Source: Liolophura sinensis
Taxonomy: Eukaryota; Mollusca; Polyplacophora; Chitonida; Chitonidae
Length of the DNA: 64,000 nt
Direction: 5' to 3'
Assembly: GCF_032854445.1 (NCBI RefSeq)
Contig: NC_088301.1
Coordinates: 30,300,402-30,364,401 of the forward strand
Position numbers and translations under genes: made by a program. Positions 54,201 through 59,343 of this stretch are shown piece by piece; positions within the stretch are counted from its first letter, which is position 1, and the number at the start of each line of letters is the position of its first letter. The notes beneath the pieces are model-generated. The model saw only the letters and a program-made list of their open reading frames with translations, ran no database searches and had not been told where the DNA came from.

Positions 54201-57200
54201 AATTTCGCCCATGACTTTTACTTTTTTGGGCAAAAATTTAGATGGCTGACTATAGTCTTTAACTTGGCTTGGTATATTTCAGTTGTTTGATACTCTTAAA
54301 AAGAAGCCAGTGTTGAAGTACATGTTAGGTGATTTGCCCGAGGCTTCTGCACACAGGCTCTTCTCCACAGCTCAAACCCAGATCTGGGCCATACAGGGTA
54401 AGTACTACAACAACCTACCAGTTTACTGCATTGTTTCACTGGTTACATAAAAGCACATGCAAGACCCTGAAAATAGCCAACCTCATATTTCACACACAGC
54501 TGTTTGATTTATGCCAGAGTTTCTGGCTTCAGCGATATGCTTGTAAGATGATGCTTGAGGCTTTTTCCCAGTTCAGTAGCTTTATAGGGTGAAGCTTGTT
54601 TTGTGTTTCTGATAATGTGATACTACTGTAAGAGAGCATTATAAATAAGATAACACTGGGATTGTTCTACCAGAAAAGGGGGCCTCCGTGGCTCAGTCGG
54701 TTAAAGCGCTAGCGCAGCGTAATGACCCAGGAGTCTCTCACCAATGCGGTCGATGTGAGTTCAAGTCCAGCTCATGCTGGCTTCCTCTTTGGCCGTACGT
54801 GAGAAGGTCTGCCAGCAACCTGCGGATGGTCGTGGGTTTTCCCCCGGGCTCTGCCCGGTTTCCACCCACCATAATGCTGGCCGCCGTCGTATAAGTGAAA
54901 TATTCTTGAGTACGGCGTAAAACACCAATCAAAAAAATAAAAAAATCTACCAGAAAAGATGTTGGGCGTGACATAAACACGGAGAATCAGTCTTGATAGT
55001 TTTGCTGTAAGTGGAGTTACTCGTGGCAACCTCCACATTCTTGACAGTATAACATGTCATTCATGGTTATCACGTCAGATCCTGCTCATTTCGGATTGGT
55101 GAGCGTTTTACAGCAAAGAGGTGCTGCTCACATAGGATTGGCTAGTGTTTTATAGAAAGAAGGTCCTGCTCACATCAGATTGGCTAGCGTTTTACAGCAA
55201 AGAGGTGCTGCTCACATCGGATTGGCTAGTGTTTTATAGCAAGAAGGTCCTGCTCACATCAGATTGGCTAGTGTTTTATAGCAAGAAGGTCCTGCTCACA
55301 TCAGATTGGCAGTTTTTCATGTCTCAGCTGAGGCATGATTGTTTCCTATGTCTGGTTTCATCATCCCAAGTCCAAGTTTAGTCTTATCAGGGAAACCTTA
55401 CAAACTACGTGTATAATACTACAAACAAGTGTTTTATCCTGTGTTTAGCACTGGCAGCTATTGTAGCCAATTCGTACTCAGAAGATTTGTATGGTGTCGT
55501 CCAGAAGTCCCTTCCAGACATTCTTCGCTCTCTGCTCAACTTACAAGAGGTAAGAATTGTCCACTCTCTGCTCAACTTACAAGAAGTAAGAATAGTTCAC
55601 TCTGTGCTCAACTTACAAGAAGTAAGAATAGTTCACTCTGTGCTCAACTTACAAGAAGTAAGAATAGTTCACTCTCTGCTGAACATACAAGAAGTATGAA
55701 TAGTCCACTCTCTGCTTAACTTACAAGAAGTAAGAATAGTCCACTCTCTGCTCAACTTACAAGAAGTAAGAATAGTCCACTCTCTGCTCAACTTACAAGG
55801 TATGAATAGTCCACTCTCTGCTCAACTTACAAGAAGTATGAATAGTCCACTCTCTGCTCAACTTACAAGAAGTAAGAATAGTCCACTCTCTGCTCAACTT
55901 ACAAGAAGTATGAATAGTCCACTCTCTGCTTAACTTACAAGAAGTAAGAATAGTCCACTCTCTGCTCAACTTACAAGAAGTATGAATAGTCCACTCTCTG
56001 CTTAACTTACAAGAAGTAAGAATAGTTCTCTCTCTGCTTAACTTACAAGAAGTAAGAATAGTTCACTCCCTGCTCAACTTACAAGGTATGAATAGTCCAC
56101 TCTCTGCTCAACTTACAAGGTATGAATAGTCCACTCTCTGCTTAACTTACAAGAAGTAAGAATAGTCCACTCTCTGCTCAACTTACAAGGTATGAATAGT
56201 CCACTCTCTGCTCAACTTACAAGAAGTAAGAATAGTCCACTCTCTGCTCAACTTACAAGAAGTATGAATAGTCCACTCTCTGCTTAACTTACAAGAAGTA
56301 AGAATAGTTCTCTCTCTGCTTAACTTACAAGAAGTAAGAATAGTCCACTCTCTTAACAGTGAAAAGTTTAGATAAATATCAGGAGAGGTATCTTGAATAT
56401 GCCCTACAGGCATATTAAGTACTGTAAATTACAAAATTTATGACAGCCTGTTGTGTTATGGAATCAGTGTTAAGGTACATATTAGGGTGGTTTTTCAAAA
56501 AGTACTGCATGTATAGAGCTGGGGTCTTGTACACATGTAAAGCAGAATAATACCTGTGAAACCACGTAAAAAGAGAAGGATGTTTCATTCTTGGGACACA
56601 CAGGGTACATGTAAATTAATGTAAAGCACAAACTTCATGGCTTAATTTCTTGTGTATTAGAATGCATTAAGGTAGGTAAATATCTTGATCACATTTTTCT
56701 GTCTGAAAAAGTTTTACTTCATTGGCTACTTTTCCAAGGTAGCCTTTTACTCAGATAGGTAATGAAGGCCCTGTATATATCATGTTAAACTTCAACATTA
56801 CTTTGCGAGCCTCTCACCAATGCTTCCTGTCAGGCCATACATGGGAAGTCTGTCAGCAACCTGCGGATCGTCGTGGGTTTCCACCCACCATAATGTTGGC
56901 TGTCGTCGTATAAGTGAAATATTCTTGAGTACAGCGTAAAACACCAATCAATTAAATAAATAAATAAATCAACATTACTTTTCTAAAAATTTCAAATATT
57001 CATTTCAAGACATGCTGAGAGTATGTGTTACGGTTTGTCAGATACCTATAAAGGTACATGGACTGGTATTTCATCCTAAAAATTAAGTTAAGTTCGCATG
57101 AAAGAGTGCAAAAAGTTTGTTGCAAATAAGGTCTTTGATATTTTTGTCCATTTTCTTTGAAAGAGAAAAAGAAAGTTGAAAATTATTTTGTATGGAGGGT

Positions 57201-59343
57201 ATTTGGGACCACCTATTGGTATGTATTGTTTTTGCATAATAATGTTATAAATGAGGATGTAACACATGTTTAATAAGTATATTTGTGCTAGAATTTGGTA
57301 TTTTCAGCTAGCTTGTATGTTCAAACTGGATTTTGATCATGTTTATATTTTTAATATATTGATAAATATTATCATAATTCATATTAGATGCATGTGTTCA
57401 GATATAAACAACAAATTTACTTTCAAATAAATTTATTAGACATGCAGCATATCTTTATTTAGAATATCATTATGCAGAGATGATATATACCAAGAGGTTG
57501 TCCCAAATTCACGGCATACCATATACTCAAATTCTCTTTTCTCCTGAAAGAAAAGTCAGTAAAAAATATTAAGGATCATAAGTTGTTAGACTCTAGCGTC
57601 TGATTTGGGAATCACTTTCATGTTTTCTTTCCCTTTAAGACAAACCAAAATTCTTTCGTGTACAGAATTGTAATGTATTAGAGTGGAAAGCTACTTCAGA
57701 TTTAATCTTTCAATACAGATCACTGCACCTTTGATGACACTATACATGTCTGTAACCTTCAGGAAGCTTACTAACTAATAACTCTAACTTTTCTCAATAG
57801 AATGTAGAAAAGCACTTTAAGCTGGCGCCTGTGGTTGGAAGACGTGCGCAGAACTCGTGTGCGCCCAGTGACATTGGACTGAGGCACTCCCTGAGGACAT
57901 CCCTCAAGATGAGCTTATATAGAATTATCAACACTTTTGGAAGTCATTTAAGGTAATATTCTGAGAGATAAGTATGCCAGTCTGTTGTTAAAATAGGTCT
58001 GTATTTGATGTCTTGGTTCTTAGGGAGGATTTATCGTAATGACATGGGAGCGGTGTATAATGAACTATGATTGCAAAACAGACCCAAAAGGTATCACTGC
58101 CCAGACTGTGTAAATTGTAAATGGTAAGATCAAAAGTTCTGGATGGGCAGATAACTCTGCAGTTACATGGTTATATATGTACTTGACTAGCATTTACCTG
58201 TCACCTGTGTGGACAAATGTTTGCAGCTGTTGTGATGATGGCTTTTGAAAAGATTAGGATAAGATAAGATAAGATTATTAGTGAAACTACAGTGTGCACC
58301 AGTAGATTGTGTATACCATTAAAGGGAAGTCAATCTTGTAACTTGTAAAACAGTTGTGCCCTCCACCTACTGGAATTATAGTGCCGCCTATGATGATATG
58401 TGACCTAATATGTTATTGTTATGTTATACTATTGAAATCACTGGTATTGTTATTCATATAGGTTGAAGGCACTGCTGTTTTAGGACTTGCAGGATTTGCA
58501 TACCCATACACATGCCTAGCAAACAAACACACATGCGTGAAAAACTTACTTCTTTTCTCCTTTACTACTAATTTAGAAGTTTCGTGGGGCAGTGCATCCA
58601 GCATTTCGATGATGAATTCAGCCCTGCTAGCTGCTCATAGACGTATAAGTTTGGAACATTATGCATTAACCACAAAATCAATGGGAAGAAGACATTTTTT
58701 TTAAAAAAACAGATCCATGTACTGTTTAATGAACCCTGATGCAGTCACAAATACCACTCTGTGGCTGATTATTTCCCCTTACTACAGCATAAAGTATGCA
58801 TGCAGAATATTGTCTATGCCATTTATTCAGGCACACAAAAGTTATGTACAAAAGATGCATTTGGCCATTATGTATACTAAAATACAAATGCTAATCTAGA
58901 TGTGAAGTTTGGTCAAAATTTGTTTAAAACTACAAGATTAGCTCTCCATACATTAGAAATCCACCCAAACAAAATGCCAAGGGCCATAACTCTGGAAGTA
59001 ATTGCTGTATCCCAACGCAAATTTTACATGTCGCTCAACTTGTAGCCACACAAACATCTGTGAAGATTAAAACCAATGCGTTGAGAAATATAGGAGGAGA
59101 TTAGTGCTTAAAATGATCACTGATAAAAAGATACGGACAAGCTAATCGCTATACATCATTATATTTTTAGGTTTCTTGATTCAACCTCAACATTATATTG
59201 CAGAACTGGTGTTAAGCCATAATCATTCATTCATTCTTGGTTTAATAGGTATAATGATAGTAGACTTTTACGTTTACAGTGAAATAAAGCTGGCACCAGA
59301 GCATGGCAAGAGACTCAAGTTTTTCATGGATTACAAAGAGTAA
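36208..59343 (+). CDS. NDC1: NDC1 / TMEM48 transmembrane nucleoporin, complete, 17 exons
   Basis: Join 36208-36240, 39370-39490, 40386-40487, 41086-41257, 42193-42316, 44760-44871, 46766-46814, 47331-47463, 48267-48359, 48977-49058, 50358-50501, 50928-50981, 52858-52913, 54283-54397, 55449-55549, 57801-57952, 59280-59343: 1,707 nt, 568 residues. Every junction is GT/AG with matching phase. NDC1 is an integral membrane protein of the pore membrane that anchors the nuclear pore complex; its partners in vertebrates include Aladin (AAAS) and NUP35/NUP53. Hydrophobic segments in exons 2, 3, 4, 5, 6 and 8 fit the six N-terminal membrane spans. HPIQW (45-49) and GGHPHNW (341-347) match human NDC1, as do LYGVVQKSLPDILRSLLNLQ in the cytosolic C-terminal domain and a C-terminus HGKRLKFFMDYKE. 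The human protein is 674 residues; the shortfall is mostly in the low-complexity linker (exons 11-13). Introns hold many SINEs and minisatellites. Confidence 0.96.
36488..37091. mobile_element. TIR element family D, copy 1 (NDC1 intron 1)
   Basis: Both ends carry the near-palindrome AGTCCATTTAGATGGACT (36490-36507 and about 37071-37088), and the DNA between (about 600 bp) has no long frame. The interior GGCACGAATTTCAAACTCCC, TTATGGCAATCTAACTCACC and GTGGACCTCATTGAGATC recurs inverted at 43050-43375. Confidence 0.75.
37267..37512 (+). mobile_element. tRNA-derived SINE with head, old copy
   Basis: Diverged full-length copy: GGCTTCTGTGGCTTATTGGT (box A region), CACCAATGGGATGGCTAG, CGTACATGGGAAGATCTACC, CATAATCCTGGTGGCTGTCA and AAACACCCGTCAAATAAATA. 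Confidence 0.88.
37513..38022. other. NDC1 intron 1, unique part
   Basis: Nothing recognised. Confidence 0.7.
38023..38075 (-). mobile_element. SINE 3'-tail fragment
   Basis: TATTTATTTACTTATTTGAT, TGGTGTTTCACACCGTAG and AAAGAATATTGCAC. Confidence 0.8.
38215..38479 (-). mobile_element. Full-length tRNA-derived SINE, - orientation, with TSD
   Basis: Complete copy on the - strand from the tRNA-like head (complement of GGGGCCTCCGTGGCTCAGTC at the right end) to the AAAT tail. It includes box A TGGCTCAGTCGG and box B-like GTGAGTTCAAGTCCAG on the - strand. It is flanked by the 13-bp direct repeat TGTTTCAATATAT at 38202-38214 and 38480-38492, which marks retrotransposition. Confidence 0.97.
38493..39369. 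other. NDC1 intron 1, 3' part
   Basis: Nothing recognised apart from the acceptor CATGTTTGCAG at the end. Confidence 0.7.
39370..39490 (+). CDS. NDC1: NDC1 exon 2
   Basis: Acceptor GTTTGCAG, donor TATCAG|GTATTT, phase 0 in and 1 out. Residues 12-51: VYHWRIGASVVWTVLSVPAF ... LHPIQWIS, first membrane span plus the HPIQW motif. Confidence 0.97.
39690..40066. mobile_element. Palindromic MITE-like element family B, copy 2
   Basis: Right arm GCTAGTGGTGGCAGTCATGT, ATAGAGAGTGGCACGTGCAC, TGTAAGGAGCATG; left arm around CTTACATCACTGCCACTAAT. Its right half aligns in the same orientation with 22300-22388. It lies in NDC1 intron 2. Confidence 0.7.
40180..40275 (-). mobile_element. SINE fragment, - orientation
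   Basis: TTTATTTATTTGGTTC, CTCAAGAATATTTCTCTCAT and ACTATGGTGGCAGGAAACTG. Diverged. Confidence 0.82.
40386..40487 (+). CDS. NDC1: NDC1 exon 3
   Basis: Acceptor AATTTTCAG, donor TTTACAG|GTAGTA, phase 1 in and out. Residues 52-85 include the second membrane span (WGTMVTVMIILGGVSVY). Confidence 0.95.
40488..41085. other. NDC1 intron 3
   Basis: AT-rich, ending in a strong TCTTTCTCTCCCCTCACCCAG tract. Nothing else recognised. Confidence 0.8.
41086..41257 (+). CDS. NDC1: NDC1 exon 4
   Basis: Acceptor CACCCAG, donor GAAAG|GTAAGT, phase 1 in, 2 out. Residues 86-142 (VVADVPLTRLAALGRLVKVP and onward) with the third membrane span around HGAVFSLASGMIAWSCTGL. Confidence 0.97.
41289..41348. repeat. 20-bp triplicate
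   Basis: Three tandem copies of CCAATAGGGCTGTGTGCCTA just inside NDC1 intron 4. Confidence 0.95.
41349..42192. other. NDC1 intron 4
   Basis: Holds a degenerate SINE at 41925-42112. Otherwise unique AT-rich sequence. Confidence 0.8.
41925..42112 (+). mobile_element. tRNA-derived SINE, degenerate
   Basis: GTCGCTGTGAGTTCAAATCT (box B region), AGCTCATGCTGGCTTTCTCT, CACTGTAATGTTGGCTGCC and an AAAATAAATAC tail. Confidence 0.85.
42193..42316 (+). CDS. NDC1: NDC1 exon 5
   Basis: Acceptor TTTCTTTCAG, donor TTACAG|GTTTGA, phase 2 in, 0 out. Residues 143-184 with the fourth membrane span (HVFVVCHGLLVGFMFHLLF) and FVQFPLLQ. Confidence 0.95.
43050..43375 (-). mobile_element. TIR element family D, copy 2 (inverted, degenerate)
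   Basis: On the - strand it reads AGTCCATCCACATGGACTTC, GGCGTGGATTTCAAACTCCT, CTTATGGCAATCTAACTCAC and TTCATTGAGATTGGTCCC, matching the element at 36488-37091 in the same order. Confidence 0.7.
43837..43880. repeat. Short near-perfect inverted repeat
   Basis: CGACGCTGATTGGTTG and CAACCAATCAGCATCG are complementary over 16 bp with one mismatch, with a 12-bp loop. Each arm carries a CCAAT core. Confidence 0.9.
44080..44590. repeat. 36-38-bp minisatellite, about 13 units
   Basis: Two subunit types alternate: GATGCTGTGACTGGGTGGTT plus TATGCTGTCAATTCTTAG (38 bp), and GTGCTGTGACTGGGTGGTTT plus ATGCTGTCTTGTTGCG (36 bp). It ends 170 bp before exon 6. Confidence 0.95.
44760..44871 (+). CDS. NDC1: NDC1 exon 6
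   Basis: Acceptor CTTCTCAG|CAG, donor CTACTGG|GTAAGA, phase 0 in and 1 out. Residues 185-221 (QAKFFQVKSNLWPMMEKSLL, then FVNVLFYLLYFLLG), fifth membrane span. The acceptor is a NAGNAG tandem (CAGCAG), so the first Gln may be optional. Confidence 0.95.
44872..46454. other. NDC1 intron 6
   Basis: Unique AT-rich sequence, then a SINE. The frame reading on from exon 6 to 45113 is intron read-through. Confidence 0.8.
46455..46613 (+). mobile_element. tRNA-derived SINE, 5'-truncated, upstream of exon 7
   Basis: Well preserved from CTCCGGCCGTACGTGGGATG to CACCAATCAAATAAATAAAT. It ends 152 bp before exon 7. Confidence 0.95.
46766..46814 (+). CDS. NDC1: NDC1 exon 7 (49 nt)
   Basis: Acceptor TATTTGCAG, donor GCAAG|GTATAT, phase 1 in, 2 out. 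Encodes GHIPRHWFLRNLYLEA, matching human GYIPKAWI. The length is not divisible by three, so skipping would shift the frame. Confidence 0.94.
46846..46950 (-). mobile_element. SINE 3' fragment, - orientation, downstream of exon 7
   Basis: A (TTTA)n run, TTGATCGGTGTTTTACGCCG, TACTCAAGAATATTTCACTT and GAGGAAACTGGGCGGAGCC. Only 31 bp after exon 7 and inverted relative to the copy upstream. Confidence 0.93.
46951..47330. other. NDC1 intron 7, 3' part
   Basis: Unique sequence ending in the acceptor TGTCTGTTGTAG. Confidence 0.8.
47331..47463 (+). CDS. NDC1: NDC1 exon 8
   Basis: Acceptor GTTGTAG, donor ACTGAG|GTAAGG, phase 2 in, 0 out. Residues 238-282 (PEPALNTIFGMMDLGLLWQV and onward), sixth membrane span around SGTLVHALLSYATFLFKVY. 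Confidence 0.96.
47464..48266. other. NDC1 intron 8
   Basis: Contains a poly(G)/poly(T) tract near 47500-47530 and a SINE at 47878-48035. Confidence 0.8.
47878..48035 (-). mobile_element. tRNA-derived SINE, - orientation
   Basis: TATTTATTTATTTATTTGAT, GTTTTATGCCGTACTCAAGA, GCATTATGGTGGGAGGAAAC and CATCTGCAGGTTGCTGCAG. Confidence 0.94.
48267..48359 (+). CDS. NDC1: NDC1 exon 9
   Basis: Acceptor TTATTTCCAG, donor GTAAAG|GTATGC, phase 0 both sides. Residues 283-313, PFVFPVETMYEEYKNKCLHN and onward, matching the human HVFPVQPPFAEG region. Confidence 0.94.
48505..48780 (+). mobile_element. Full-length tRNA-derived SINE, + orientation
   Basis: Starts GGGGGCCTCCGTGGCTCAGG. Box A is TGGCTCAGGTGG and the box B-like sequence is GTGAGTTCAAGTCCAG. 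The complete body ends in AATAAATAAAATAAATAAAT. NDC1 intron 9, sense. Confidence 0.97.
48977..49058 (+). CDS. NDC1: NDC1 exon 10
   Basis: Acceptor ATTAACAG, donor CAGCCAG|GTTTGT, phase 0 in, 1 out. Residues 314-340, YLGFLDLHLLTKHTPNRRRQ LFTLSQP, closely matching human [20 protein letters not shown]. Confidence 0.97.
49059..50357. other. NDC1 intron 10
   Basis: Contains the SINE at 49605-49770. The - strand frames 49465-49758 and 49595-49840 arise from SINE sequence. Confidence 0.8.
49605..49770 (+). mobile_element. tRNA-derived SINE, 5'-truncated
   Basis: GTACATGGGAAGGTCTGACA, AACCTGCGGATGATCGTGGG, CATAATGCTGGCCGTTGGCG and CACCAATCAAATGAGTAAAT. Confidence 0.93.
50358..50501 (+). CDS. NDC1: NDC1 exon 11
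   Basis: Acceptor TTCACCAG, donor TCCAAGG|GTATAT, phase 1 both sides. Starts GGHPHNWNSVYRACILEIDS (human GGHPHNWTAISRECL), then a Ser/Asn-rich linker. Confidence 0.97.
50928..50981 (+). CDS. NDC1: NDC1 exon 12
   Basis: 54 nt, acceptor TTGTTTCAG, donor GTCACAG|GTCAGA, phase 1 both sides. Encodes GALGVSSLTFRGSGPSVT in the poorly conserved linker, so supported mainly by phase and splice signals. It could be skipped without a frameshift. Confidence 0.8.
51383..51599 (+). mobile_element. MITE-like element family A, copy 3
   Basis: Left arm ATTTACCTTTTCGCAAAAGA and right arm TGAAGGTTGAAGAATTACAG. The core GTCAGTTTCAGGGCTTGCAA, AAAGTATAATTTTATCAG and GTAATGCCTTCAGAATATGC is close to copy 1. Confidence 0.78.
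52267..52297. repeat. (TA)n microsatellite
   Basis: Imperfect TA run. Confidence 0.9.
52858..52913 (+). CDS. NDC1: NDC1 exon 13
   Basis: Acceptor TTTGTTTCAG, donor AAAAAG|GTAAGT, phase 1 in, 0 out. Encodes DTSSIKQQQNPPQEDPLKK in the linker. Confidence 0.85.
53222..53585. repeat. 25-27-bp minisatellite, about 14 units
   Basis: Units of CTAAGCCGTGAGTTGGCTAT plus ATACACC. Shorter 25-bp forms read GGCTATACACC or GAATATACACC. Confidence 0.96.
53935..54045 (+). mobile_element. SINE relic
   Basis: CTGTGGATGGTCATGGGTTT, CCCCAGGTTCTTCCCAGTTT, CATTATGCTGTCTGTCATCG and TATAAGTGG, followed by non-SINE sequence. Confidence 0.8.
54283..54397 (+). CDS. NDC1: NDC1 exon 14
   Basis: Acceptor GTATATTTCAG, donor ATACAGG|GTAAGT, phase 0 in, 1 out. 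Residues 426-463 (LFDTLKKKPVLKYMLGDLPE, then AQTQIWAIQ), the start of the conserved C-terminal domain. Confidence 0.96.
54679..54945 (+). mobile_element. Full-length tRNA-derived SINE with 13-bp TSD
   Basis: Complete copy: GGGGCCTCCGTGGCTCAGTC head, box A TGGCTCAGTCGG, box B-like GTGAGTTCAAGTCCAG, full body and A-rich tail. The direct repeat TCTACCAGAAAAG flanks it at 54666-54678 and 54946-54958. Little diverged, so among the youngest copies here. Confidence 0.98.
55076..55312. repeat. 42-bp minisatellite, about 5.5 units
   Basis: Units of AAGGTCCTGCTCACATCAGA plus TTGGCTAGTGTTTTATAGCA plus AG. NDC1 intron 14. Confidence 0.95.
55449..55549 (+). CDS. NDC1: NDC1 exon 15
   Basis: Acceptor CTGTGTTTAG, donor CAAGAG|GTAAGA, phase 1 in, 0 out. 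Residues 464-497, ALAAIVANSYSEDLYGVVQK, then SLPDILRSLLNLQE, close to the human segment ending LLTLQE. Its last 21 nt and the donor are the founder of the array that follows. Confidence 0.95.
55529..56355 (+). repeat. 36-bp array amplifying the NDC1 exon 15 splice donor
   Basis: About 23 units of CTCTGCTCAACTTACAAGAA plus GTAAGAATAGTCCA. The first unit is the genuine end of exon 15 plus its donor. About 13 further units keep an exact GTAAGA; others have GTATGA, four of them in a form shortened by about 3 nt that reads CAAGGTATGA. Because 36 is divisible by three, exon 15's frame stays open through three further GTAAGA units, to TGA at 55697-55699. Confidence 0.97.
56356..57800. other. NDC1 intron 15, remainder
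   Basis: Contains a segment at 56470-56560 resembling 16790-16870, and a SINE at 56805-56968. Otherwise AT-rich unique sequence. Confidence 0.8.
56805..56968 (+). mobile_element. tRNA-derived SINE, internally deleted
   Basis: CGAGCCTCTCACCAATGC joins directly to CTTCCTGTCAGGCCATACAT, so the box B region is lost. GTCGTGGGTTTCCACCCACC lacks the CGGGCTCTGCC block. Then a complete 3' end and tail. Confidence 0.93.
57801..57952 (+). CDS. NDC1: NDC1 exon 16
   Basis: Acceptor TTCTCAATAG, donor TTTAAG|GTAATA, phase 0 in, 2 out. Residues 498-547: NVEKHFKLAPVVGRR, then LRHSLRTSLKMSLYRIINTF, matching human RASLKTAIYRITTTFGEHL. Confidence 0.97.
57953..59279. other. NDC1 intron 16
   Basis: AT-rich. Short frames at 58419-58604 (-) and 58717-58899 (+) are not recognised. 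Confidence 0.8.
59280..59343 (+). CDS. NDC1: NDC1 exon 17 (terminal)
   Basis: Acceptor CGTTTACAG, phase 2 in, stop TAA at 59341-59343. Encodes SEIKLAPEHGKRLKFFMDYK E, matching the human C-terminus (EHQKRLQQFLEFKE). Confidence 0.95.

Follow-up and report, generated by a model that had tools for sequence, protein, structure and literature searches.

When a 5' splice site recurs many times in the intron behind its own exon, where did the copies come from, and which of the donors does the gene use? We addressed this question in a 64,000-nt stretch of Liolophura sinensis DNA (GCF_032854445.1, NC_088301.1:30,300,402-30,364,401, forward strand), hereafter the window; unless a contig is named, coordinates are window positions, with position 1 being its first letter, and slashes mark splice junctions. 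The human gene IFI6 (6-16, G1P3) has a splice-donor minisatellite with a unit of 12 bp, compared with 36 bp in the array considered here, and this minisatellite was reportedly described by Turri, Cuin and Porter in 1995 (Nucleic Acids Res 23:1854). We consider it probable that the L. sinensis array, which lies in the gene NDC1, is a junction minisatellite born by duplication and one instance of a genome-wide process, with splicing kept at the original donor (55550) and the copies serving mainly as intron sequence.

Host gene and genuine donor

By sequence, the host is NDC1, a nuclear-pore gene; the identification covers the C-terminal exons, which matched both the Ndc1 family and NDC1 proteins of solved structure. 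The exon that precedes the array (55449-55549, plus strand, 101 nt; labeled exon 15 in the initial annotation) was placed from its sequence and its colinearity with solved NDC1, starts behind the acceptor TTTAG/CACTGG, and ends in phase 0 with SLLNLQE. A profile search placed Pfam PF09531 (Ndc1_Nup) at 55442-55564 with 31.2 bits (cut-off 29.8), and the exon matched PDB chains named Nucleoporin NDC1 with an E value of 7.2e-14. The next exon (57801-57952, plus strand, donor AAG/GTAATA) is preceded by CAATAG, and its first codon, AAT at 57801, encodes the N of NVEKHFKL. When the two exons were joined, the best E value improved to 1.5e-26, with two Nucleoporin NDC1 chains matched, both presumably of vertebrate proteins. 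In both chains, LQE passes directly into AVEKHFKL or AVDKYFKL without a gap at the exon boundary, and the donor at 55550, together with the phase-0 intron 55550-57800 (plus strand, 2251 nt), is therefore well supported by the colinearity of the predicted protein with solved NDC1 sequences. The placement of the genuine donor just before NVEKHFKL, as originally annotated, thus agrees with a junction to 57801 that involves no insertion.

The array and its origin

Tandem Repeats Finder reported a minisatellite at 55528-56353 (plus strand) with 23.2 copies of 36 bp and 93% matches, that is, head-to-tail copies with a unit in the 10-100 bp range of minisatellites. It contains 23 GTA[AT]GA sites, from 55550 to 56334. 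The exonic part of the first unit (unit 0; 55529-55549, plus strand) consists of the last 21 nt of the exon, of which 20 of the 21 letters equal the array consensus, the sole mismatch being the G at -1; over the entire unit, 2 of 36 letters differ. The array and the unit table agree that the 36-bp unit is the exon end (SLLNLQE) with its 5' splice site, as in an IFI6-type array, so that the initial description of an exon-intron junction turned into a minisatellite holds. Since the exonic copy encodes residues common to solved NDC1, we take the exon as the source and the array as the product. When the first 172 bases of the array were searched against the 609 Mb genome with a tool that skips simple repeats and very common words, all six matches fell inside the NDC1 array itself.

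The 23 units comprise 11 distinct types in the order ABCCDEFGHFHEHIJKGEGFHIE, in which short blocks recur, for example H-I and G-E/G-F. These recurring blocks point to repeated local duplication and suggest that growth of the array included block repeats. Tandem arrays are known to cause errors in assemblies (PMC6868369), and the array or its length might on that account be an artefact. We find this scarcely credible: the units are of 11 types in irregular order and include 34-bp variants, the window contains no N, and similar arrays occur at other loci on other contigs.

Splice-site creation by tandem duplication is a route of intron gain, for which PMC4974935 gives multiple 24-bp duplicates in fission yeast and the potato RdRp. 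The NDC1 array resembles that process in the multiplication of splice signals, but its copies lie inside an existing intron and do not suggest that an intron or exon was gained. Tandem AGGT duplication as a mode of intron gain, in which both the GT and the AG of the new intron come from a duplicated exonic segment, was considered and rejected, as one intron (55550-57800) joins NDC1-colinear exons and holds all the copies. A second minisatellite, with 5.7 copies of 42 bp (55080-55317), stops some 130 bp upstream of the NDC1 exon 55449-55549 and has one 10-mer, AGTGTTTTAT, in common with the acceptor region of that exon. It was set aside as a candidate amplified acceptor: the single shared 10-mer has a score that was reached by 11 of 500 mononucleotide shuffles.

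Reading frame of the copies

All of the donor motifs reported initially are present, namely GTAAGA at 55550, 55586, 55622, and 55658 and GTATGA at 55694. Read in the frame of the exon, SLLNLQE is followed by VRIVHSLLNLQE, the 12 residues that use of the first copy donor (GAA/GTAAGA, 55586-55591) would add in frame. The second (GAA/GTAAGA, 55622-55627), third (GAA/GTAAGA, 55658-55663), and fourth (GAA/GTATGA, 55694-55699) would add 24, 36, and 48 residues, respectively; all of these lie on the plus strand. An extension of 12 residues per unit without frameshift, as initially described, therefore holds for these first units (donors 55586-55694). The first in-frame stop, TGA at 55697-55699, lies inside the fourth copy donor and is carried by all longer forms. 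The unit at 55694 had been correctly named as the origin of the stop; however, the stop-free in-frame exons come from five donors (the genuine 55550 and 55586, 55622, 55658, and 55694) and not from four, as the TGA lies just beyond donor 55694. The first copies of the array are in frame and stop-free from 55586 to 55694, as in an IFI6-type array.

The earlier count of about 23 units is consistent with the 23.2 copies found, but their being in frame is true only of units 0-6 (donors 55550-55766) and 16-17. The frame is broken by the first 34-bp unit, which has lost two letters and whose donor is AAG/GTATGA (55800-55805, plus strand); with those at 56086, 56120, and 56190, there are four such frame-shifting 34-bp units in all.

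U1 pairing and choice of donor

Pairing energies were computed with the U1 5' end found in the U1 genes of this genome. The genuine donor (GAG/GTAAGA, 55550-55555, plus strand) is predicted to pair with U1 at -9.6 kcal/mol. The 22 copies comprise 13 GAA/GTAAGA (-4.5 kcal/mol), five GAA/GTATGA (-0.7 kcal/mol), and four AAG/GTATGA (-5.7 kcal/mol; the 34-bp units), and hence the first three copy donors pair at -4.5, the fourth at -0.7, and that of the first 34-bp unit at -5.7. An A occupies -1 in 18 of the 22 copies, and a G is found there only in the genuine site and in the four units with T at +4. In the same register, every one of the 22 copies is at least 3.9 kcal/mol weaker than the genuine site. 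The array would thus differ from an IFI6-type one whose copies are similar in strength to the authentic donor (-9.6 vs. -5.7 to -0.7). As a separate observation, 32 U1 snRNA matches lie in a row at G000:C10:30033968-30099180, mostly about 2 kb apart, and four more are on the small contig C627.

G occupies -1 in all six donors assigned to NDC1, among them the genuine site, although the exons with donors 41258, 42317, and 47464 were recognized by eye alone. Because a change from GAG to GAA is synonymous, the G kept at -1 of the genuine donor fits selection on splicing; a single founder mutation in the array accounts for it just as well.

Other predictions bear on the preference for 55550 differently. 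In local folding, the genuine donor was 0.12 unpaired, whereas five of the six copies examined were at 0.31-0.38 and one was at 0.20. This lower predicted accessibility of the genuine donor counts against that preference. Outside the array, a GT at 56672 (AAGGTAGGTAA) is the strongest U1 match in the intron and, at -11.9 kcal/mol, pairs better than the genuine donor; U1 energy by itself is thus not a sufficient predictor of use. An imperfect inverted repeat at 55520-55557 (12-nt arms, 83% complementary) would fold the genuine donor onto the exon end.

In human IFI6, two downstream repeat units serve as donors, according to the available text of PMC4526556, and the NDC1 array is like that system in having minisatellite units that provide splice donor sites. 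By analogy, the first NDC1 copies could be working alternative donors that yield isoforms longer by 12, 24, 36, or 48 residues. The four extensions are in frame and stop-free, and the folding predictions give the copies somewhat better accessibility than the genuine donor. We nevertheless regard this as improbable. As far as that source goes, downstream units are reported as used in IFI6, whereas the NDC1 copies are only predicted donors and weaker than the original: copies 1-3, without G at -1, lose 5.1 kcal/mol of U1 pairing, and copy 4 loses 8.9 kcal/mol. Moreover, the insertion would fall at a point that is ungapped in two NDC1 sequences, and with one unit (12 residues) inserted, the best match to solved NDC1 drops from 96.1 to 80.5 bits, a cost of 15.6 bits against the better of the two. 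The proposal in the initial annotation that a later donor is chosen is weakened by these pairing and match losses, and this mechanism, though possible, is probably minor. Leaky use of 55586-55694 (12 to 48 additional residues) is possible; dominant use of these donors is unlikely.

It had also been proposed that further units could act as decoy donors for U1. Taken further, selection might maintain the array as a decoy or platform that binds U1 and thereby controls how the intron is spliced or prematurely polyadenylated; the presence of 23 donor-like sites in one intron could speak for this. We judge this very unlikely, as 22 of the 23 sites are weaker U1 matches, each below the genuine site by the margin given above, and arrays are common in the introns of this genome. 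The RNA also gives no sign of a structured element: the transcript of exon plus array is less stable than its shuffles (z +1.33 and +6.49), with 186 of 200 and 20 of 20 shuffles folding at least as well, and a structured RNA element was rejected on these values. Folding of the DNA strand gave z -0.61 against shuffles.

The reading that we prefer, duplication of the junction with splicing kept at 55550, may be put as follows. A 36-bp stretch made up of the NDC1 exon end and its 5' splice site would have been duplicated in tandem into the intron, and later rounds of local duplication, some of them probably of whole blocks of units, would have enlarged the array. A minisatellite process that is widespread in the genome may in this way occasionally capture an exon edge. 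Splicing would most likely stay at 55550, because the original donor is upstream, adjoins the exon, and is predicted to pair with U1 better than any copy. The copies, having presumably lost the G at -1 or the A at +4, would for the most part be plain intron; an occasional slip to one of the donors at 55586-55694 would lengthen the protein by 12-48 residues, and use of a donor farther on would bring a premature stop. In Caenorhabditis elegans unc-73(az100), in which a donor region competes with a downstream copy as it would here, upstream sites were used more (available part of PMC8865678); that duplication differs from the NDC1 array in being engineered, with two copies 18 nt apart.

Minisatellites and other exon ends in the genome

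Eight hits of PF14830, a molluscan haemocyanin domain, lie on one contig of this genome, and the best of them matches PDB hemocyanins such as KLH1, as expected of a mollusc. Nine sampled 10-kb stretches (90 kb) contained 12 arrays, defined by a period of 10 or more and four or more copies, which occupied 17.9% of bases; the window contains 9 arrays on 10% of its bases. In unit length and copy number, the NDC1 array falls within the range of the ordinary intronic minisatellites in the window and the samples, but the NDC1 unit, unlike theirs, includes coding sequence and a splice site. Intronic minisatellites are also reported from earthworm metallothionein, and the available part of that paper (PMC12783039) describes no amplified splice sites.

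Exon ends elsewhere were sampled from the first 30 of 81 myosin matches, six of these 30 having an internal stop, and from 60 of 132 kinesin matches, namely the first 60 that had no internal stop. Later stop-free matches supplied 40 additional donor-side pieces (20 kinesin, 20 myosin); two stop-free kinesin matches were omitted inadvertently, and one myosin match was omitted for its long open frame. The sample covers two gene families; some pieces stem from one and the same gene and several overlap, which limits their independence. A score rather than annotation served to place the donors, and some were missed. A strand check found L033 contrary to its listed strand and left L024, L030, L040, L043, and L047 undecided; all were kept.

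Donor-spanning 20-mers had two or more extra copies in 3 of 90 exons, compared with 8 of 90 for intronic control GT sites, chosen at random 120-300 nt downstream of the donor, and 0 of 85 for exon-interior GT sites. By offset, repeated 20-mers rose from 3/90 at the donor to 10-11/90 at +200 to +230. This rise with intron depth indicates that arrays, frequent in introns, become sparser near exons, and these counts do not support donors as hot spots of array birth. The NDC1 array fits the edge of the intronic array distribution, and a donor-specific process is without support; a common local duplication process would have captured an exon-intron junction.

An exon end with its donor was repeated in an array at 4 of the 130 sampled myosin and kinesin donors (95% interval 0.8-7.7%), so that the initial view of this design as unusual fails within this genome. 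All four are on minus strands. At L037 (G000:C12:686729-686914), a myosin exon ending QCVII is followed by a 66-bp array with the original CAG/GTATGTG and seven copies, which pair with U1 at -9.4 or -9.1 kcal/mol (original, -9.1). At L045 (G000:C11:2675303-2675428), the end of a myosin exon and its donor CAT/GTGAGTAT recur in a 32-bp array of 7.5 copies; six copies are at -7.5 kcal/mol, like the original, one is at -7.4, and one lacks the GT. Between the genuine donor and the reported start of the L045 array lie about 60 nt with a diverged copy; the array was counted because its units repeat the exon end and donor. At L092 (G000:C1:4570948-4571115), the last 38 or so nt of a kinesin exon and its donor form a 63-bp array, in which GAG/GTAAGA is followed by five GAG/GTAATG copies (-6.7 vs. 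-9.6 kcal/mol); at this locus the score had settled on a GT within the array, and the true donor was identified by inspection. At L090 (G000:C9:5672128-5672319), a kinesin exon has three donors 30 bp apart and an extension that is open in frame. The original pairs at -8.3 kcal/mol, the second donor more strongly at -11.1, and the other copy more weakly at -7.2. This locus, possibly a nascent array, was found with Tandem Repeats Finder and by eye; it scored 0 in the 20-mer test.

The idea that such arrays generally have weak copies was rejected, since most copies at L037 and L045 equal the original and L090 has a stronger one. Selection for unit lengths that are multiples of 3 was considered and set aside, the first spacing at L092 being 68 and the unit at L045 being 32.

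This wider pattern of junction arrays is a more interesting result than the choice of donor in NDC1. Tentatively, minisatellites may repeatedly capture junctions in this mollusc lineage (NDC1, myosins, and kinesins; a few percent of exon ends), and the arrays may fuel genome-wide variation in exon length, although we hold this to be somewhat doubtful. If it were true, hundreds to thousands of genes would be seeded with arrays of donor copies, some equal to or stronger than the original, and exon lengths would vary throughout the genome through rapid mutation of array length. The published splice-donor minisatellite that we found, that of IFI6, concerns a single gene, and none of the titles listed in searches of open-licence papers points to a genome-wide study of junction minisatellites. 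A genome with about 3% of sampled exon ends so arrayed would let one follow, as a natural experiment, how the spliceosome selects among many near-identical donors. Given RNA data for the species, L037, L045, L090, and L092 would test the choice between tandem donors better than NDC1; at L037 and L045, where the U1 pairing of most copies matches that of the original, position and strength could be separated with RNA reads.

On the acceptor side, an array was counted at 1 of 90 sites, 2 of 90 having been flagged automatically. This is L054 (G000:C8:682171-682380, plus strand), in which 5.9 copies of a 64-bp unit, consisting of the acceptor and the first 30 or so coding nt, lie upstream of a kinesin exon, that is, an amplified 3' splice site. 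A bias between donors and acceptors was not detected in these samples (4/130 vs. 1/90, Fisher p 0.65; 3/90 vs. 2/90 by the 20-mer test alone). L088, which was flagged on the acceptor side, was not counted, as some 25 nt separate the end of its array from the acceptor. An array lay within 50 bp of the myosin exon match at 3 of 30 loci (L029, L037, and L043), and no donor copies were seen in the arrays of L029 and L043. L132 and L134 were flagged and not counted, their repeated 20-mers being almost wholly on the intron side. At L134 (G000:C10:719630-720029), a myosin exon is immediately followed by an array with a unit of about 17 bp that resembles the intron side of the donor (GTGAGAGCTGATTGG).
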